Positions 11,004 to 56,380 of a stretch of 64,000 nucleotides of DNA are shown here, piece by piece. Source of the stretch: a virus. The DNA is taken from IMG/VR virus record IMGVR_UViG_3300020472_001862, positions 106,237 to 170,236 of that record, one strand, 5' to 3'. Positions within the stretch are counted from its first letter, which is position 1, and every line of letters begins with the position of its first letter. The notes below the pieces were generated by a model. It did not search any database. It was not told where the DNA came from and saw only the letters and a list, made by a program, of their open reading frames with translations. Position numbers and translations under genes: made by a program.

Positions 11004-11666
11004 ATGAAACTTAGCAAAGACACTCTTGATGTTCTCAAGAACTTCGCAACTATTAACACGAACATTCTTGTTCGTGAGGGAAACTCGCTCTCCACTATTA
11101 GCACAGGTAAAAACATTTTTGCCAAGGCTGATATTACAGATCCGTTTCCTAAAGAATTCGCAGTCTATGATTTAAATAGTCTGCTTTCCCTACTTACTGT
11201 TATGGAAGATACAGATGTTGGCTTTGGAGACGAAAGTCTTACAGTAACAAAAGGCAATTCTGTTTTTGAATACTTTTATGCAGACCCTAACATTATTGTT
11301 AGTGCCCCTGATAAGAATATTGAAGTAGACAACTTCTTCCAGTTCGACTTATCCAAAGATGATATTGACATGATAATGAAGGCAGCAGCTATTACAGCAG
11401 CTCCTATGTTAAGCGTCATTGGTGATGGTACTGAAGTGGTAATTACAGTAGGCGATCCTGCTACTCCTAAGTCTAATTCTTTTAGACAGGCATTAGGACA
11501 AACAGACAAAGTATTTGATGCTAGACTAGCTGTTGAAAACTTTAAGGTTGTACCTTCAGGTTATACAGTTATTTTATCTGAGAAAAAGTTTATGTTCTTA
11601 GAGAGTAGTAAAGGCAATTTAAAATATTGGTTAGCGCTTGAGCGTTCATCATCTATTGGAGAATAA
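11004..11666 (+). CDS. 45: Sliding clamp, DNA polymerase processivity factor (gp45)
   Basis: About 220 residues from the ATG at 11004, chosen because TTGGAG lies at the right distance; an upstream TTG at 10992 overlaps that site. The start MKLSKDTLDVLKNFATIN and the body with YDLNSLLSLLTVMEDTDVGFGD are characteristic of T4-type gp45. It forms the trimeric ring that tethers gp43 and, in T4, also activates late transcription together with gp33 and gp55. It heads the clamp/clamp-loader operon behind its own promoter. Confidence 0.93.
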   Translation: MKLSKDTLDVLKNFATINTNILVREGNSLSTISTGKNIFAKADITDPFPKEFAVYDLNSLLSLLTVMEDTDVGFGDESLTVTKGNSVFEYFYADPNIIVSAPDKNIEVDNFFQFDLSKDDIDMIMKAAAITAAPMLSVIGDGTEVVITVGDPATPKSNSFRQALGQTDKVFDARLAVENFKVVPSGYTVILSEKKFMFLESSKGNLKYWLALERSSSIGE

Positions 11667-11667
11667 A

Positions 11668-11850
11668 ATGGGAGAAGATCAATTAGAGGTAACTATCCGT
11701 GAAGCACAGAATGGCTGGGTAGTTGAATTAAACCGTGAAGGTGAGACAATGGAGTACATTTTCACAAGACCTAATCCAGCTATCAACTTGGTTAGGAAAG
11801 TAATGAAGGGTGAAGTAGATCCTTTCAATGAAGGAGAAAATGATGAGTAG
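11668..11850 (+). CDS. Small conserved protein between clamp and peroxiredoxin
   Basis: 60 residues from the ATG at 11668, directly after the clamp stop. The pattern WVVELNREGETMEYIFTRPNPAINLVRKVM suggests a short beta sheet plus one helix. Similar small genes sit between 45 and 44 in marine T4-like phages; function unknown. It overlaps the peroxiredoxin start by 8 nt. Confidence 0.7.
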   Translation: MGEDQLEVTIREAQNGWVVELNREGETMEYIFTRPNPAINLVRKVMKGEVDPFNEGENDE

Positions 11851-12451
11851 TTTGACACCAGTAGTTCCTGATTTTGTAGTTAAGAAACAAGTTACTACAA
11901 CTTCTGGAGATAAAATTTGGGTAGAGATGACAAAGCAACAATTATTTGACGGCAAGCGTGTCGTTGTTTTTGGTTTGCCTGGAGCATTTACACCTACATG
12001 TTCAAGCCAGCAATTGCCTGGTTATGAACAAGCATATTCTGAATTTAGAGATGCAGGTATTGATGACATTTATTGCGTTACAGTAAATGATTCTTTTATT
12101 TGTAATGAGTGGCATGTAGATCAAGGATTAGTTAATGTAAAACTTATTCCTGATGGTAGTGCAGAGTTTACAATTAAAATGGGTATGGATGTTCGTAAGG
12201 ACAACCTAGGATTTGGTATTCGATCTTGGAGATACGCAGCTATCATAGACGATGGACATGTTATTCAAGAATTTGTAGAGCCAGGCTTCGCAGATAATTT
12301 TGAAGGCGACCCTTATGATATAAGTGCACCTGATAATGTTTTAGATAATGTTAAAGCGTATGGATGGCCTAGTAAGTATGAAGCAGACGAAGGTAAGCAT
12401 ATAGACCTTAGTTTTTCAGAAACGACAGATGTTAAGGAGACTTTTTCCTAG
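11843..12451 (+). CDS. Peroxiredoxin (Prx5-like)
   Basis: About 202 residues. The ATG at 11843 has AGGAG at 6-nt spacing; an ATG at 11840 is equally open. The peroxidatic site is GLPGAFTPTCSSQQLPGY, with the conserved Pro-x3-Thr/Ser-x2-Cys. Further family segments are YCVTVNDSF and a Trp/Arg-rich GIRSWRYAAIIDDG. It would reduce hydrogen peroxide or alkyl peroxides using a host thiol donor. A peroxiredoxin inside the clamp/clamp-loader operon is unexpected and suggests protection of phage replication from oxidative stress. Confidence 0.9.
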   Translation: MSSLTPVVPDFVVKKQVTTTSGDKIWVEMTKQQLFDGKRVVVFGLPGAFTPTCSSQQLPGYEQAYSEFRDAGIDDIYCVTVNDSFICNEWHVDQGLVNVKLIPDGSAEFTIKMGMDVRKDNLGFGIRSWRYAAIIDDGHVIQEFVEPGFADNFEGDPYDISAPDNVLDNVKAYGWPSKYEADEGKHIDLSFSETTDVKETFS

Positions 12452-31765: not shown

Positions 31766-32941
31766 ATGCGCTTTACTGAATTTTTAAAAGAAGATAAAGA
31801 AGAAGATAAACTGAAGCATTTAGAGCATGTGGAGGATCATGTAATCCATGCTGGACACGAAGGCTTTGGACATGCTTTCCATACAATTAATGATGTTCAT
31901 AATAGTTTACAAGGCAAAGGTTCAGGACAAACACAGACAACAATTAAATATGATGGAAGTCCTGCTGTAGTATTTGGGAAACACCCAGAGAACGGAAAGT
32001 TCTTTGTAGCATCTAAATCAGCATTCAACAAAACACCAAAAATTAACCATTCACACGAAGACATAGATGCTAATCACGGACATGCTCCTGGACTTGTATC
32101 TAAATTAAAAGCAGCTCTAGATCACGCACATAAAATTAAACCTAATGGTGTATATCAAGCAGACATAATGCACGCTGGAGATGTTAAACACGACAAGAAG
32201 AATAATAGAGTAGATTTTACACCACAGTTAATTACATATCACGCACCAGCAGACTCAGAACATGGCAAAGCAGCTAAGAGAGCCAAGCTTGGGTTAGCAA
32301 TACATACGGAGTATGAGGGTAAGACAATAGCCGATATGAAAGCCAAACACGGTGCTATTGACGCAAATACCTTCACAAAGCACAAGGATGTGCACCTTAT
32401 GAGTGCTAATCATGATACAAGTACACATAGGTATAGCCTGGAAGATCGTAAGCAAGTAGATCATCATCTAGAACAAGCAGTAGCACACTTTAAAAACACA
32501 CCCAAAGAACATCACGATACAGTTCAAAAACATGCTACGGCAATGAAAGTATATGTCAACCATACAGTACGAACAGGCGAACAACATTCTCACGAAGGGT
32601 TCGTAGCACATCACAGCGCCTCACATCAAAAGAAGATAGATAAAGTTAAAACAGATGTTGCTAAAGCAAGACATCAAACTACTATGGATAACACCATAGG
32701 TCATATAAATAAGAATAAGGAACACTTTGAAGGCCCAATGAACATGCACAAGCATTTACAAGCGGCAAAGAATATAATTACAAACACAATGTCTCAAAAA
32801 TCAGAATGGGGGCATGAGATAGACGGAGCTAAGACTAAACCAGAAGGTTTTGTTGCCATACGAAATGGTAGGCCTTCTAAATTTGTAGACAGGAAAGAGT
32901 TTAGTGCGCTAAACTTTAACAAAAACGATGCGAGGAGATAA
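31766..32941 (+). CDS. Ligase/nucleotidyltransferase-motif protein with capsid-targeting-like N-terminus
   Basis: 391 residues, exceptionally rich in His and Lys. The N-terminus MRFTEFLKED resembles the T4 capsid-targeting sequence. It then shows motifs in the order of the ATP-grasp-like polynucleotide ligase/capping superfamily: KYDGSPAVVFG (Lys61, motif I), GVYQADIMHAG (motif III-like), PQLITYHA (IIIa-like), EGFVAIRNG (from 360, motif IV) and KFVDRKEF (Lys372, motif V). I believe the family is one of unknown function in marine phages (DUF6267-like). Ligase or nucleotidyl transfer activity is inferred. It may be packaged and injected. Confidence 0.72.
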   Translation: MRFTEFLKEDKEEDKLKHLEHVEDHVIHAGHEGFGHAFHTINDVHNSLQGKGSGQTQTTIKYDGSPAVVFGKHPENGKFFVASKSAFNKTPKINHSHEDIDANHGHAPGLVSKLKAALDHAHKIKPNGVYQADIMHAGDVKHDKKNNRVDFTPQLITYHAPADSEHGKAAKRAKLGLAIHTEYEGKTIADMKAKHGAIDANTFTKHKDVHLMSANHDTSTHRYSLEDRKQVDHHLEQAVAHFKNTPKEHHDTVQKHATAMKVYVNHTVRTGEQHSHEGFVAHHSASHQKKIDKVKTDVAKARHQTTMDNTIGHINKNKEHFEGPMNMHKHLQAAKNIITNTMSQKSEWGHEIDGAKTKPEGFVAIRNGRPSKFVDRKEFSALNFNKNDARR

Positions 32942-32944
32942 GAC

Positions 32945-32992
32945 ATGAGCAAATGCAAATGCTGTAAATGCTGTAATTGTACTTGTTGTTAA
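32945..32992 (+). CDS. 15-residue cysteine-rich peptide
   Basis: The ATG at 32945 has AGGAG (32933-32937) at ideal 7-nt spacing, and the frame reads MSKCKCCKCCNCTCC, with 8 Cys in 15 residues (CxCC, CC, CxCC). It stops 3 nt before the next ATG, which has no ribosome-binding site of its own. It could be a miniature metallothionein-like metal binder, or a leader peptide whose translation controls the nucleotidyltransferase gene by cysteine availability. It is too short for ORF calling. Confidence 0.7.
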   Translation: MSKCKCCKCCNCTCC

Positions 32993-32995
32993 GCA

Positions 32996-33853
32996 ATGGC
33001 AGAAGATAAGCACATAGTATTTTCATACGGAAGAATGAATCCACCTACTGCTGGACATAGCAAGGTTGTGGATAAGGTTCATTCTCACGCACAAAAAATA
33101 GGTGCTAATCACGCAGTTATTGTTAGTCATTCACAAAACAATAAAACAGATCCTTTACATCATGAACATAAGAAAGAATATTTAAAACATATTCATCCTG
33201 AAGTTAACTTTGAACATTCTACAAAAGAACACCCTCACTTCCTGGCACAACTTAAAAAGTTCCACCAAGAAGGACATACACACGCAACAATGGTTGTAGG
33301 AAGTGATAGAGTAAAACAATTTAAAGCGTTGGCTAATAAGTACAACGGCAAAGAGTATAATTATAAAAAGATACATATCTTATCAGCAGGACAGAGAGAT
33401 CCTGATGCTGAGGGAGTAGCAGGTATAAGTGGAACAAAGATGAGAGCACATGCAAGTGGCAATGACTACAAATCTTTCAAGGCAGGATTACATGCCAATC
33501 ATAGTGATGAACATGCCAAAAAACTATATAAAGCAACACGACAAGGTATGAACTTACAGAAAGAGGAGAGAGGCATGTTAGACTTTCAAACATTTTTAAA
33601 AGAAGACATGGAAGGAATGTCTCAGAAGTCTGGAGACAAAAGAAGTACAGAGAGTGGTGCTGGTATGACGGCTAAAGGTGTAGCCAAATATAATAGACGA
33701 ACAGGTGGTAATCTAAAAACAGCAGTAACTACACCACCAAGTAAACTTAAAAAAGGCAGTAAAGCAGCAGGAAGGCGTAAGTCTTTTTGTGCTAGGTCCA
33801 AAGGTTGGACAGGCGAGAGAGGTAAAGCTGCTAGGCGGAGGTGGAATTGTTAA
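32996..33853 (+). CDS. NMNAT/cytidylyltransferase-like enzyme fused to a basic phage domain
   Basis: 285 residues. Residues 1-190 form a nucleotidyltransferase: FSYGRMNPPTAGHSKVVDKV (HxGH-type motif) and GISGTKMRAHASGND (I-S-x-T-x-x-R motif). From residue 194 a second module starts MLDFQTFLKED, then a basic domain ending GRRKSFCARSKGWTGERGKAARRRWNC-like. That C-terminal signature is common in T4-like marine phage head-region proteins. It follows the Cys-rich peptide with probable translational coupling. Confidence 0.82.
   Translation: MAEDKHIVFSYGRMNPPTAGHSKVVDKVHSHAQKIGANHAVIVSHSQNNKTDPLHHEHKKEYLKHIHPEVNFEHSTKEHPHFLAQLKKFHQEGHTHATMVVGSDRVKQFKALANKYNGKEYNYKKIHILSAGQRDPDAEGVAGISGTKMRAHASGNDYKSFKAGLHANHSDEHAKKLYKATRQGMNLQKEERGMLDFQTFLKEDMEGMSQKSGDKRSTESGAGMTAKGVAKYNRRTGGNLKTAVTTPPSKLKKGSKAAGRRKSFCARSKGWTGERGKAARRRWNC
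33575..33853 (+). CDS. Internal-start basic protein with capsid-targeting-like N-terminus
   Basis: In-frame ATG at 33575 within the gene above, preceded by GAGGAGAGAGG, one of the best ribosome-binding sites in the area. The product of 92 residues begins MLDFQTFLKED, as a capsid-targeting sequence would, and carries the SFCAR...RRWNC domain. It may therefore be made both as a fusion and as a separate protein. Inferred, not proven. Confidence 0.6.
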   Translation: MLDFQTFLKEDMEGMSQKSGDKRSTESGAGMTAKGVAKYNRRTGGNLKTAVTTPPSKLKKGSKAAGRRKSFCARSKGWTGERGKAARRRWNC

Positions 33854-34838: not shown

Positions 34839-36269
34839 ATGAAGAACTTTATGACATTCAGAGAAGATTTAGCTTCTGGCAGACCTGCCAAAAAACCTGT
34901 TTCTAGTAATTTACTACAACAAAGAGCTAAAGCAAATACTAAAGCTCTAAAGTCAGGTTTCATGAGGTTAACGAAACAGGAAAGAGATAAAGAAGCTCGA
35001 AGAATGTCAGAAGAGAAAAAGAACTGTGGGTGTGGACAAGATCCTTGTATCACATATGGCAAAAAACAAATGAAAGAAGCTATAGATACAAAACCAGTAC
35101 ACGATGCCAATAAAGCATTAGAGAAAAACATGGGTCTTAAAAAGACTAAGGACTCAGGTATCGTTAAAACTAAAGGTGGGTATGCAAGGAAAAGAACTTA
35201 CACCAGAGAGTCTGCCAGGGATAATTACAATCCAGAAATTTCAGATAAAAGAACTAAAGAAAAACTTAAAAAGGCTGGACTACCGCCTGAGTCTCCTAAA
35301 GTAATGGAAGCAAGAGAAAGAATTAGAGATATATTTGAAGGTAAGAAAAAAGGACTAGACGGCAAAGCATGTTGGAAAGGATACAAACTACAAGGTACCA
35401 AAAAGAAAGGTAATAAAACTGTAGATAATTGTGTACCAATGAGTGAGGAAGAACAAATGAAACCTCATAAAATGTACAAGGGCGATAAAGTAGTCGTGGC
35501 AAAGAATAAAGCAGAACATGATAAACTTAACAAGCAAGGATATACACACGACGATCCTAAAACTAAAAAGATTGAAGAAGTATCAGATCATCTTAAGACA
35601 AGATATATCCATAAGTCTATGAGGGATATAGACACTAAGGAAAGAGCTTCACAATTAGCAGACAAACAAGGCGCACCTGCTAGTGTAGGTAAATCATTAA
35701 GTAAGTCTACAGGCAAAAGACGTAAAGGTATTGCAAGAGCAAGAGCCAATTTAGAAAGACCTATTAGAGAAGGTAAAAAACCAGTAGTACACAGCACAAA
35801 GCCAGACAGTCTTAAAATGGTTAAGATTAAATACAACAAACCTATTAAAACAAAAGTAACAGACATAGGTCCTGGTGGAAAAGAAGTAGTTAGAAAAGAT
35901 TGGTCTGAAGGAATAGAAAGAGATCCTAAGTCTAATTCATTTAATAGAACAAAAAGAAAAGAAACAACTGTAAGAGTTGGACAAAAGAGAGATAAGAAAA
36001 CAGGTAAGATGGTAGATGTGATGGGTAAATCATCAGCACCACAAGGCTTACCTTCAATGAAAGAACATCAAATTCAATTGGTAACAAACTTAGATTTTAA
36101 TGAAAGTCTAGGTATGTTAGTATCAAGAGGCTTAAATAAAGTCCGTGGTGCTATTAAAGATGCAGAAAAGAGAACAGGATATAAAGTAGATCCTAGTAAA
36201 AACAAACATTCAAATCCAGTATCAGGCAAGAACATTGCTAAAAGACTGGCATCGCAAAAAAAAAGGTAG
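34839..36269 (+). CDS. Basic head-region protein, N-terminal part; ends at A9 slippery run
   Basis: 476 residues, about one third Lys, Arg or Glu. It starts MKNFMTFRED, a capsid-targeting-like N-terminus, and contains DGKACWKGYKLQGTKKKG...DNCVPM (about 172-200), a short motif seen in several cyanophage virion-region proteins. NFNESLGMLVSRGLNKVRG lies near the C-terminus. The frame ends with a TAG just after nine A residues (36256-36264). A -1 shift there joins it to the next open frame. It is probably an internal head or core protein. Confidence 0.75.
   Translation: MKNFMTFREDLASGRPAKKPVSSNLLQQRAKANTKALKSGFMRLTKQERDKEARRMSEEKKNCGCGQDPCITYGKKQMKEAIDTKPVHDANKALEKNMGLKKTKDSGIVKTKGGYARKRTYTRESARDNYNPEISDKRTKEKLKKAGLPPESPKVMEARERIRDIFEGKKKGLDGKACWKGYKLQGTKKKGNKTVDNCVPMSEEEQMKPHKMYKGDKVVVAKNKAEHDKLNKQGYTHDDPKTKKIEEVSDHLKTRYIHKSMRDIDTKERASQLADKQGAPASVGKSLSKSTGKRRKGIARARANLERPIREGKKPVVHSTKPDSLKMVKIKYNKPIKTKVTDIGPGGKEVVRKDWSEGIERDPKSNSFNRTKRKETTVRVGQKRDKKTGKMVDVMGKSSAPQGLPSMKEHQIQLVTNLDFNESLGMLVSRGLNKVRGAIKDAEKRTGYKVDPSKNKHSNPVSGKNIAKRLASQKKR
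36256..36264 (+). other. A9 run, candidate -1 frameshift site
   Basis: Zero-frame codons TCG CAA AAA AAA AGG TAG contain A-AAA-AAA, a strong slippery heptamer. A slip of -1 enters the downstream frame, open from 36242 to 37582. A homopolymer sequencing or assembly error would give the same picture. Confidence 0.6.
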
Positions 36270-37602: not shown

Positions 37603-39171
37603 ATGAACCACGGTATTATAATGGGTGGTGTGGTTGACTATTATTATGATTCAATCAAACGAGCACCCGGCGCACATAAAATTGCTACACATCTAAGACG
37701 AGAAGGATGGGACGTCGAGGTATTAGATTTTGTTCAATCCTGGACAATAGAAGAACTGCAAGAATTCACAAGACAAAGAGTACATTCAGGGACAAAGTTC
37801 CTCGGCCTTAGCGCTACATTTTCTATTAGATTTAAAACATTATATGAATTCGCCAGATGGTTTAAGAAAGAATACCCAGACATTCTAATCATAGGAGGAT
37901 CTCAGGCATTCCATAATTGTGAGGGACTGCCCTTAGACTATATGGTACATGGCTATGGTGAGTTGGCTATGAGTGCTATTCTTAGCGGAGATGTTAGGTA
38001 TCAGACACATAAATGGCTTAATGGACACAAATTTAGGCGCGTAGACGCCACACATGACTATATGGCAGCGCGTATGAAAGACCTAAGTACACATTACGAG
38101 GAAAGGGACTATATAGAGCCACAGGAGGTCCTTACAGTAGAGTTTGGGCGTGGTTGTATATTTAACTGCCACTTTTGTACCCTCACTTATAGGAACATTA
38201 AGGACGATCACAGCAGGGCTGAGGACAACTTATATCAGGAAATGCTAGAGAACTATAACAAATGGGGCACAACAAACTACTCTATATCTGATGAAACAGT
38301 TAATGATTACACAGAAAAGATAGAAAGATTTGCCGGTGCTATCAGAAAATTGCCTTTTAAACCTAATTGTGCAGGTTATATTCGTGGAGACTTATTAGTA
38401 CATAAACAAAAAGATTGGCAAGCAATCGAGGATATAGGCTTAAATACACAATTCTATGGTATAGAATCTTTCCATACACCTTCAGCAAAATCTGTAGGTA
38501 AAGGTATGCAGTCAGGTAAACTACAAGATGGTTTATTAGAATATAAAGACCATATGAGGAGTAAAGGACACTTCCAGGCACATTTAAGTCTAATAGCAGG
38601 ACTACCACATGAAACATTAGACACATTAAGAACAACTAAAAAATGGATAGTGGATAATTGGGTAGGACAATCAGCACAAATTATGCCTTTGTGGATTCCA
38701 GATCAAACTAGAATATATGAAGAACAAAGTAGATTTGCAATGGACCCAGGCAGATACGGCTATACAAAAACAACAATGGAAGAGTCTAGTAATGGATTCT
38801 GGGAAGACGCACCTCATAAAAGATTTGGAAATTTGTATAGGGGTATAAAAAAGAGAGAAGAAGAGGAAACAGGTGTAGTATATAACACAGAAGAGAGTAC
38901 ATTCCAGGAAGAAATGTCTTTTATGAACTGGAAAAATGATAATACTAATCTATATCAAGTGTTAAATTACTTAGAACATGAGTGGTATGTTGGTGATGAA
39001 CAGTTATGGAAAGAACCGCCTTTACCCTTCTCATATCATAATTGGCTAATAGACCCTAATTATAAATGGGAAGATATGTCTAAACCTAAGTCAGAATTAG
39101 CTGTTCCTCAGGAATTAGCTAGAAACTTTATAGAAAATTATAAAAGGAAAAAGTTAGGATTAACTTCCTGA
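37603..39171 (+). CDS. B12-binding-type radical SAM protein (paralogue 2)
   Basis: 522 residues. GAHKIATHLRREGWDVEVLDFVQSW at the N-terminus, IIGGSQAF and MVHGYGELAMSA in the cobalamin-type domain, then the cluster motif GRGCIFNCHFC (about 185-192) and SDETVNDYTEKIERF. It ends NYKRKKLGLTS, as do the paralogues. Its late promoter and its place among virion genes suggest it acts late in infection, unlike an early metabolic enzyme. Confidence 0.86.
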   Translation: MNHGIIMGGVVDYYYDSIKRAPGAHKIATHLRREGWDVEVLDFVQSWTIEELQEFTRQRVHSGTKFLGLSATFSIRFKTLYEFARWFKKEYPDILIIGGSQAFHNCEGLPLDYMVHGYGELAMSAILSGDVRYQTHKWLNGHKFRRVDATHDYMAARMKDLSTHYEERDYIEPQEVLTVEFGRGCIFNCHFCTLTYRNIKDDHSRAEDNLYQEMLENYNKWGTTNYSISDETVNDYTEKIERFAGAIRKLPFKPNCAGYIRGDLLVHKQKDWQAIEDIGLNTQFYGIESFHTPSAKSVGKGMQSGKLQDGLLEYKDHMRSKGHFQAHLSLIAGLPHETLDTLRTTKKWIVDNWVGQSAQIMPLWIPDQTRIYEEQSRFAMDPGRYGYTKTTMEESSNGFWEDAPHKRFGNLYRGIKKREEEETGVVYNTEESTFQEEMSFMNWKNDNTNLYQVLNYLEHEWYVGDEQLWKEPPLPFSYHNWLIDPNYKWEDMSKPKSELAVPQELARNFIENYKRKKLGLTS

Positions 39172-53773: not shown

Positions 53774-54265
53774 ATGGAACCAACAAAGTTTAGACAAGTT
53801 AACGAAGCTTTTGATTGGGTATTTGAAGCGCCTAAAAAGGATCAGGTTGAGAGACTTAAAACAATAGCAAGTAAGAATCAGACTATTGTTCCTTTTACAA
53901 GATGGGGCGTGGGTGCTGAACCTGTAGAGTGGGATTTACCTGAGGGAATGCCTAAAGAAACTAAAATTAAAGACGACATACCTGATGACATGGGTGAGTC
54001 TACTCTTACATTAGAGTTTAGAAGGATTAAGCAATTTACAGATCCTTCATCTAATATGGCAAACTTGCCACCATGGAAGCGTGAGATGAATTGGATGTCT
54101 ATTATTGAAGGCGTACACCACAAAGAAGCAGAGTTCTTAACAGCAGTTAAGGATAAGCAATTACTAAAACTATATCCTAAACTAGAAGCTATTCTAGGTG
54201 ATTTGGGTATTACAGAATATGTAAAGCCTAAGAAGAAGGCTCCTCGGAAGACGGCAAAGAAATAG
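53774..54265 (+). CDS. Conserved T4-like marine phage protein (unknown)
   Basis: 163 residues; AAGGAG ribosome-binding site. Characteristic: FRQVNEAFDWVFEAPKKDQVERL, a ring of acidic residues, and a Lys-rich tail (PKKKAPRKTAKK). Its 3' end overlaps the convergent gene by 38 nt. Confidence 0.7.
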   Translation: MEPTKFRQVNEAFDWVFEAPKKDQVERLKTIASKNQTIVPFTRWGVGAEPVEWDLPEGMPKETKIKDDIPDDMGESTLTLEFRRIKQFTDPSSNMANLPPWKREMNWMSIIEGVHHKEAEFLTAVKDKQLLKLYPKLEAILGDLGITEYVKPKKKAPRKTAKK

Positions 54266-54779
54266 TATCAGGTTTATACTTATCATAAAACCTACCCCAC
54301 TGATATCCTTCAGGTAACGGTTCAGTTACTGGTATCGTAGTAGTTACACCTTCAGGTGATACACACCAACGACGCTTAACCTTAAAGTTAGAAGCATAAG
54401 ACATTTTTATACGAGTATCTTTACTGTGGCTCCTGCCATACATTGGATTGTTCTCACCGCCTCGAGTATTAGTCATAGTCTTAGATACTTTCTCTCTAAA
54501 CTCTGGGCTCCTACCATTCTTTACTGCTGGATGATTCTCACCTAACTTAGCCTGTCTTATTCTTTCCAGGCCTTCAGGTGTGTGATGTTTAGTTCTTTCT
54601 CGAGCTGTATCGTTTACAATAGGTAATCCTAGATGTAGTGCATGCTCTCTTATTTGTTCAATAGTAGAGAACCTTCTTATCAGTTCACGAGGCTTTGGAA
54701 CATCTTGTACATGATTGTTGTCTACGATATATAGACTGCCTTTGTGATTAAATAGAAAGAATAACGAAGCTTTGGACAT
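54228..54779 (-). CDS. NUMOD3-containing homing-endonuclease-like protein
   Basis: 183 residues. HTPEGLERIRQAKLGENHP and GGENNPMYGRSHSKDTRIKMS are two NUMOD3-type DNA-binding repeats, the modules found in GIY-YIG and HNH homing endonucleases. No catalytic domain is seen at the N-terminus, so it may be a degraded homing endonuclease or a DNA-binding remnant. It is coupled to the upstream minus-strand gene by a TAATG overlap. Confidence 0.72.
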   Translation of the reverse strand: MSKASLFFLFNHKGSLYIVDNNHVQDVPKPRELIRRFSTIEQIREHALHLGLPIVNDTARERTKHHTPEGLERIRQAKLGENHPAVKNGRSPEFREKVSKTMTNTRGGENNPMYGRSHSKDTRIKMSYASNFKVKRRWCVSPEGVTTTIPVTEPLPEGYQWGRFYDKYKPDTISLPSSEEPSS

Positions 54780-56380
54780 TATGTACTAATACCTAGAGCT
54801 TTTAATTTACTATCATCTAAAGCAGGATCGTCTATGTTAGATCCTCTTGATATTGCTTTTGTAAGTCCTACCTTTTTCTCGAATATAGTTCTATAAAATG
54901 GGCCTGATACTTTTTCCTCGCCTCTTTTAACACGAATAGCTATTAGTTCCAGATGTTTATTTTTGTTGTCAGGATCTTTCATTGTTATAATCATAGAACA
55001 TAAGTCTTCATCACCATCAGTAAAGTTTCTAGCTTTGTTTACTTTAAATGTAACAGATAAACCATCGGCAAACACCTCATCTAATTTTAAAGCATCCAAG
55101 TTATAGATGTGTGAGTCTCCTTTATTATTATCAACAAGTACGACACCCATCTCTATTGCTTTAGAATCTTTACCTTGGGATAAATGTTTCCATAATGTGT
55201 CTTTAAAGTTTTTAGCACCGTCCTTTGTAGATAGTGCGTTAGTTAGTTTATTATTACCTGTATTGGTTGCTTCTCTAGTTTCCTTACTATATGTTACACC
55301 ACACTCTGCAGCCCACATACTTCTCATGGCAGCAGCAGCATCAGACCAATTGTCTTTAGTTACCATATTACTCTTCCAATTCTTTTTAGTATATTTAGGA
55401 TTCTTAATACCAAACCATTCTTCCATAACTTTTGCTGTACTCTCCCAGATGTTGGTTTCAGACATCTGTCCAAACTGTCCAACGCCTCCAAACTTAGCAG
55501 ATATTCTCATTATATCTACAGTTTCATCTACACCATGGTGATTGTTAGCAGTTACTCTTATGTCTACTTTTGTTTCAGATTGTCCTGTTTCACCTTCAGC
55601 ATTTATTTTAACCTCATTATATACACCATTGTTATACATTGAATCTGCCCATGCTCTAGTACTTGTGCCTCCTCTTTGGTTAACAAAATTAAGAGCACCT
55701 GTTATCATGTTACCACCACTAGGCTTATTATTATATTTAGGAACAGCTTTACCTTTCCAAAAATCCCATAAGTCAGGATCATATAATGCGTCAGCGTCTA
55801 TCTTTTTCAATCCATACTCCCACCATATATCATCTTTCAATGCTTCTTTACCAGGCCAACCAGATCTTTGTGCGCTATCTAATCCTTTGTTGTCTCCAGG
55901 ACCCCAGATTTTACCTTCATGTCCTTCGTCTTTCATTTCTCCCATTATAAAATTATATAGCTGGTTCTCGGTTATATTCTGTCTGTCTTTGTTTATAAAC
56001 CTAAGGTATATAGCAGCTCCTGTAACTCCCTCATTAACACCGCCCCTGTTAAACTTAGTAGGATATACACCACCATCACTACCTTTAAACTCCTCTGTCT
56101 TTTGTAGTTTACCTAAAGGTAAATCTGTACCATCTTTGAGAACATACTTATGTCCTTTGCCTTGATCTAAATAAGTTTTAAAAACAGACTCGCTAGTTAT
56201 TTGTGAGAGAGGCTTTACTGTATCAACATTGCCAACTTTATAACTTAGACTGCCTCCATGTAAAGATACCTTACCACCATCTTCTAATTCTAATTTAGAT
56301 GTAACAGACTTAGCCTTTTCCAGTAGTTTCTTACGATATTCACCGTTTTTCCGTAATGTAGCTCTATCTAATGTTGCCAT
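54779..56380 (-). CDS. Unknown minus-strand protein, possibly nuclease-like
   Basis: 533 residues. The central part has KVDIRVTANNHHGVDETVDIMRISAKFGGVGQFGQMSETN (shown to its key residues: Asp-x-Arg ... Ser-x-Lys, then GQFGQ); similar SxK-GQFGQ segments occur in phage proteins that I suspect of nuclease folds. WWEYGLKKIDADALYDPDLWDFW is Trp-rich. The start has an AGGAG site on the minus strand. Function unknown. Insertion of this gene with the NUMOD3 gene is the only clear minus-strand block. Confidence 0.65.
   Translation of the reverse strand: MATLDRATLRKNGEYRKKLLEKAKSVTSKLELEDGGKVSLHGGSLSYKVGNVDTVKPLSQITSESVFKTYLDQGKGHKYVLKDGTDLPLGKLQKTEEFKGSDGGVYPTKFNRGGVNEGVTGAAIYLRFINKDRQNITENQLYNFIMGEMKDEGHEGKIWGPGDNKGLDSAQRSGWPGKEALKDDIWWEYGLKKIDADALYDPDLWDFWKGKAVPKYNNKPSGGNMITGALNFVNQRGGTSTRAWADSMYNNGVYNEVKINAEGETGQSETKVDIRVTANNHHGVDETVDIMRISAKFGGVGQFGQMSETNIWESTAKVMEEWFGIKNPKYTKKNWKSNMVTKDNWSDAAAAMRSMWAAECGVTYSKETREATNTGNNKLTNALSTKDGAKNFKDTLWKHLSQGKDSKAIEMGVVLVDNNKGDSHIYNLDALKLDEVFADGLSVTFKVNKARNFTDGDEDLCSMIITMKDPDNKNKHLELIAIRVKRGEEKVSGPFYRTIFEKKVGLTKAISRGSNIDDPALDDSKLKALGIST

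Follow-up and report, generated by a model that had tools for sequence, protein, structure and literature searches.

Comparison with viral contigs indicates that a 48-base open reading frame, overlooked in the DNA of a virus, is a real phage gene that is conserved, selected at the level of the peptide, and mobile between genome positions. The window analysed here is a stretch of 64,000 nucleotides (G000:C1:106237-170236) from a 170,236-base IMG/VR virus record. The encoded peptide has 15 residues, more than half of which are Cys. Genes this short are usually missed by annotation; here, such a gene recurs across many marine phages. The reading that we favour, at slightly better than even confidence, is that it specifies a trans-acting, metallothionein-like thiolate peptide of 13-17 residues that would support or protect phage Fe-S assembly.

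The mini-gene in the window

The 15-codon mini-gene is located at 32945..32992 on the plus strand, with its ATG at 32945-32947 and a TAA at 32990-32992. Its codons spell MSKCKCCKCCNCTCC, in which eight Cys have the spacing CxCCxCCxCxCC, designated type A. The Shine-Dalgarno (SD) sequence AGGAG (32933..32937, plus strand) stands 7 nt before the ATG, within the 3' end of the upstream gene. This upstream gene (31766..32941, plus strand), which the initial annotation called ‘ligase-like’, encodes a 391-aa protein that matches DUF6267 (Pfam PF19782, E=1.3e-95) and phrog_455. Downstream, after a gap of 3 nt, is the ATG (32996) of a gene for a 285-aa nucleotidyltransferase (NTase; 32996..33853, plus strand), which has a cytidylyltransferase-like N-terminus and a DUF6321 C-terminus. 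The NTase gene has no SD sequence of its own and is probably translationally coupled to the preceding ORF. The frame, the AGGAG at 7 nt, and the 3-nt gap to an NTase gene lacking an SD sequence were all as the initial annotation had described them. In a dinucleotide-shuffled window, a mere 5-Cys subset of the motif has an expected count of 0.01; the complete 8-Cys pattern is found a single time in the 170-kb record, and never when the record is read backwards.

Two other features of the window were recorded. Large basic proteins encoded at window positions 34839-36269 and at L472:1741-3132 have in common the short Cys motif EEKKNCGCGxDPCITYGK. At 54001-56000, both GC and AT skew are locally reversed (GC skew -0.167 vs about +0.15 elsewhere), which suggests that this segment is transcribed from the other strand.

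Relatives collected through the nucleotidyltransferase

A first set of relatives was collected from IMG/VR by means of the downstream NTase, without use of the Cys motif. An identical mini-ORF is present immediately 5' of the NTase in L002. The NTase-adjacent ORF encodes MQKKCKCCECCSCTCCG in L004 and L005, MNSKCKCCECCSCTCCG in L006 and L021, MSKCKCCECCSCTCCG in L008, and MTKCNCCKCCSCTCCG in L020 and L030. In L016, the mini-ORF sits one gene further upstream, and in three contigs (L012-L014) the slot before the NTase is occupied by MCKCESCKCDPCTCSN, a representative of a second type, B. All eight Cys are invariant in the NTase-seeded set, and five of the eight Cys codons vary, synonymously only. 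The initial annotation had proposed looking in relatives for precisely this, i.e., Cys residues that are kept while their codons drift, and the proposal was borne out.

The mini-ORF is cleanly absent from L003, L007, L009-L011, L015, and L017-L019, even though the NTases of L003 and L009 are 90-93% identical to that of the window. No frameshifted or stop-broken copy was found among the NTase-seeded relatives that were read. Either finding in close relatives, absence or a broken frame, would have counted against the peptide in the initial annotation, and the outcome was mixed: the absences in L003 and L009 speak against it, and the lack of frameshifted or stop-containing copies speaks for it. 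Clean absences together with the lack of broken copies point to the behaviour of an accessory gene, acquired and lost as a unit.

In eight cultured Kyanoviridae (HTVC008M, Melnitz-3, S-CAM9, S-MbCM6, P-TIM40, P-SSM4, P-SSM7, and S-ShM2), the NTase is overlapped or abutted by the preceding gene, and no mini-ORF precedes it. In S-BM3, a 52-nt gap before the NTase likewise holds no such ORF. Given this overlap or abutment in the cultured phages, the likeliest reading of the window is that a mini-gene became inserted between coupled neighbours. The same observations might be taken to mean that the mini-ORF is a translational-coupling spacer, or a chance ORF, with no peptide function, since translation of the NTase seems to proceed by coupling to the preceding gene, whichever that is. 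This explanation is strongly disfavoured by the conservation of amino acids under synonymous drift and by the recurrence of the ORF in the many unrelated contexts described below. It is also opposed by the result for bacteria, where a pattern covering types A and B gave 0 matches in 385 + 369 genomes (754 genomes from two classes, those of L220, titled Rhizobiales, and L231, titled Thiotrichaceae).

Type A peptides across IMG/VR

Viral contigs were scanned with sequence patterns and the matches were then filtered for ORFs, the family form being M-x(0-5)-CxCCxCCxCxCC(-G/E/S). When 8-Cys patterns without an anchor were run on viral and bacterial contigs, TGC-repeat and antisense noise swamped the output; anchoring at the stop codon cured this for the viruses, and the bacterial result is uninformative. 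The IMG/VR viral contigs contain type A in 64 distinct contexts, with 47 distinct peptides. The match in L446 lies antisense inside a longer ORF, has no SD sequence, and is probably false, so that about 63 contexts remain.

Because the scans themselves fix the Cys residues, independent support has to come from the SD motifs, the fit between neighbouring genes, and the residues at unfixed positions. An SD-like motif is present in 52 of the 64 contexts, at a spacing of 5-11, mostly 6-8, as scored from the first ATG, which in L485 is too far upstream. Nearly all copies other than that in L446 fit snugly between genes on the same strand. Residues not fixed by the search pattern are hydrophilic in 253 of 256 cases, compared with 57% for random codons. 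With one representative per neighbourhood class, the count is 51 of 52 (p~6e-12).

When the 48-51 nt gene was compared with INPHARED by BLASTN, no convincing homologue emerged; two matches were checked and proved to be antisense within other genes. In ten Kyanoviridae records of the phage collection, type A was not found beyond repeat noise with up to 2 mismatches, nor was type B with up to 1 mismatch. Separately, the protein of ~1139 aa encoded upstream of the type A peptide in L099 (L099:4178-7597) includes an internal Cys-rich, metallothionein-like stretch, HCSAKCCGADVKAEDCGCSPDCPHCNCN.

Type B and longer forms

Type B has the form MCxCxxCxCxPCxC, e.g., MCKCKECKCKPCTCNK and MCECEECMCDPCNCGE, and contains the classic CxCxPCxC arrangement. 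Types A and B align without gaps. The window peptide and that of L012 are identical at 9 of 15 positions (shuffle p 0.006), and the mean identity between the types is 7.9 at register 0 vs at most 4.6 at any other shift. Moreover, the slot before the NTase is filled by both. Convergence of unrelated Cys-rich peptides is the alternative, and on these alignments the two types are probably homologous members of one family.

The type B core is also found inside longer peptides of 27-36 aa, e.g., MCNNEQCECENCTCDPCECKNGDCGCG of L610. In marine viral contigs, metallothionein-like ORFs of this length with the core CxCxxCxCDPCxC precede IscU by several hundred bases (L610:241-324, L618:860-970, L620:860-970, and L661:485-586); they match no family in Pfam or NCBIfam.

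Neighbouring genes and the mode of action

The genes downstream of type A include those for the NTase, a PD-(D/E)XK nuclease, IscU, an A-type carrier, NfuA, and unknown small proteins. In L457, where a terminator-like hairpin is present, and in L478 and L482, which have promoter-like sequence, no gene follows directly. These contexts bear on the two functions that the initial annotation had offered, a minimal metallothionein-like chelator or a cysteine-sensing leader peptide. In the latter case, a shortage of cysteine would stall ribosomes at the Cys codons and thereby control the next gene in cis. The density of Cys codons and the position of the NTase, directly downstream and with no SD sequence of its own, are what such a leader would have, and there is a precedent in the polycysteine short ORFs of mycobacteria (Canestrari et al. 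2020, as cited in PMC9094748). However, there is no conserved downstream gene of the kind that a leader or attenuator regulates. The following genes vary, those identified (NTase, nuclease, IscU, and carrier) are not genes of cysteine metabolism, and some copies have no directly following gene. Type B, being at the 3' end of IscU, does not lead IscU. A leader that works by stalling would need no conservation of spacer residues or of Cys spacing, yet both are conserved. The insertion between coupled genes, as read from the cultured Kyanoviridae, also argues against a leader. Finally, the RNA fold energy around the NTase start, calculated for the window sequence, is no better than that of shuffled sequences (z = -0.17). 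We regard a leader as very improbable.

The variety of downstream genes and the copies with no following gene argue instead for a trans-acting peptide, and a product of 13-17 residues acting in trans is the best explanation of the mini-gene. The metallothionein-like option was the better of the two ideas. It is supported by the conserved Cys pattern, the hydrophilic spacers, and the existence of a second form with CxCxPCxC.

Association with Fe-S assembly genes

NfuA adjoins type A upstream in L008, L092, L093, and L375, and downstream in L016. An A-type carrier adjoins it in L098 and L101, and IscU followed by the carrier does so in L359. An immediate Fe-S neighbour is present in 8 of the 64 type A contexts, all eight belonging to one of the 13 classes drawn by loose single linkage. 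This grouping, meant to yield independent classes, chains the contexts too broadly for a sound p-value, and binomial estimates are for that reason given no weight.

The search for IscU loci employed a single seed and was blind to the peptide. Among the 80 loci obtained, 29 have a Cys-rich mini-ORF within 1.5 kb, a few of them weak, e.g., L631. Type B spans the IscU stop codon in 17 of the 80, with an ATG in 14 of the 17; because the seed was taken from a type B locus, the figure of 17/80 describes how consistently the two pair in that one IscU clade and does not extend to IscU in general. In L596, L607, and L622, the type B frame over the IscU stop apparently has no ATG at the usual start, and is open further upstream inside IscU. 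For the IscU type of the window's own genome, 0 of 80 relatives have an adjacent Cys mini-ORF, and this tempered our first view of a general link with Fe-S assembly.

At the level of whole records, IscU or an A-type carrier is present in 9 of 17 type A records vs 0 of 12 peptide-less controls (Fisher p 0.003), the controls not being phylogenetically matched. In several records that carry the peptide, among them the PhoH/exonuclease lineage represented by G007, G009, and G010 (127, 201, and 99 kb), no IscU, carrier, NfuA, or radical SAM gene was found. NfuA and IscU have few matches in the phage collection, the majority in records that are unannotated or look bacterial. Phage C48C1 has IscU; neither type A (up to 2 mismatches) nor type B (up to 1 mismatch) was found in it.

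The window's own genome encodes IscU at 89873-90265 (G000:C1), followed directly by an A-type carrier at 90295-90594 (L506:10267-11012 corresponds to G000:C1:89867-90612). A ferredoxin is encoded at 11578-11910 (G000:C1; L502). There are 8-9 radical-SAM matches, five of which are in tandem close to the beginning of the record, just after the ferredoxin (G000:C1:13002-18529, ~5.5 kb). One of the 8-9 radical-SAM enzymes, which are users of Fe-S, is encoded in the window at 37603..39171 on the plus strand, with a PF04055 match at 38137-38649 (G000:C1:144373-144885), and is mentioned as context only. The mini-gene is about 49 kb from the genome's own IscU, and its neighbour there is the NTase. Accumulation of Fe-S assembly and radical-SAM genes has been described for T4-like marine environmental phages (Nishimura et al., PMC5332604); neither ‘metallothionein’ nor ‘cysteine-rich’ occurs in the main text of that report.

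These distributions also bear on whether the peptide might be a miniature metallothionein of a general kind, employed in detoxification or storage of Cu, Zn, or Cd, or in redox or cysteine buffering, with no specific tie to Fe-S. Its neighbours would then mark a hotspot at which small accessory genes insert. The Cys pattern and hydrophilic spacers would suit a general metallothionein, as would the many contexts with no Fe-S neighbour, the PhoH/exonuclease lineage with no Fe-S assembly genes, and the own-type IscU loci lacking the peptide (0/80). Nevertheless, repeated adjacency to IscU, NfuA, and the A-type carrier at different loci, and the 17/80 IscU-seeded loci at which the peptide overlies the IscU stop, speak against such a general role, which we consider the less likely reading.

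Proposed role

Support of Fe-S assembly is proposed as the most likely job of the peptide. Many peptide-bearing phages encode IscU, carriers, and radical-SAM enzymes of their own. The clustered thiolates of the peptide would most likely bind a soft or transition metal, such as Cu(I), Zn(II), or Fe(II), or nascent Fe-S units, in the manner of a metallothionein, and the peptide would in this way support cluster assembly run by the phage. It might do so by shielding IscU, the A-type carrier, or NfuA from mismetallation; alternatively, it might buffer metal or sulfur for these proteins. From sequence, we infer that the peptide is translated and binds metal, as well as the identity of that metal and the role in Fe-S assembly. 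A tentative proposal, to which we give somewhat less than even weight, is that ribosomal peptides of 13-17 residues (M-x-K-C-xx-C-x-C-xx-C-x-C and CxCCxCCxCxCC) would be a dedicated accessory of Fe-S assembly in phages, serving IscU, NfuA, and A-type carriers by carrying or protecting iron, sulfur, or nascent clusters.

If the peptides bind metal, they would lower the minimum size of encoded metallothionein-like proteins. An accessory role in Fe-S assembly, if true, would make them the smallest genetically encoded metal-handling proteins known to us. It would also hint at how phages with IscU, carriers, and many radical-SAM enzymes manage their demand for iron and Fe-S in an iron-poor ocean.

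Comparison with known systems

The peptides have the attributes by which metallothioneins are broadly recognised: they are small and Cys-dense, contain CxC, CC, and CxxC, and are almost devoid of aromatic and hydrophobic residues. In profile searches, which are weak on short, biased sequences, ten members (at least 20 aa long, or extended) matched no metallothionein family of Pfam or NCBIfam at E<=1, and three extended peptides of 20 aa or more matched no PHROG. Two longer forms yielded no relative in the PDB. Among bacterial metallothioneins, SmtA has an N-terminal motif that resembles the CxCx[P]CxC of type B; it is a longer protein, of about 56 residues, and has His ligands and a zinc-finger fold. 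We know of no Fe-S gene neighbourhood for bacterial metallothioneins (SmtA/BmtA/PmtA, Pfam Metallothio_Pro). A literature search, which most subscription journals lay outside, found no publication on phage metallothioneins or on this peptide.

The Cu-metallothioneins of the fungi Neurospora crassa and Agaricus bisporus (family 8), with 26 residues and 7 Cys in the layout X2-CXC-X5-CXC-X3-CXC-X2-C-X3, were long regarded as the shortest metallothioneins (PMC4755600). Like these, the phage peptides are very short, gene-encoded, and Cys-dense, and contain CxC motifs. They differ in having 13-17 residues and, in type A, eight Cys with the spacing CxCCxCCxCxCC. With the mycobacterial polycysteine short ORFs they share the position of a short Cys-rich ORF 5' of another gene; those ORFs, however, as cited in PMC9094748, are cis regulators of the downstream gene, whereas in the phages the downstream gene is variable or absent. 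The Fe-S assembly genes of marine T4-like phages (PMC5332604) belong to the same kind of phage and the same neighbourhood, but they encode known enzymes and scaffolds, while the ultra-short Cys-rich peptides apparently constitute a phage family undescribed so far.
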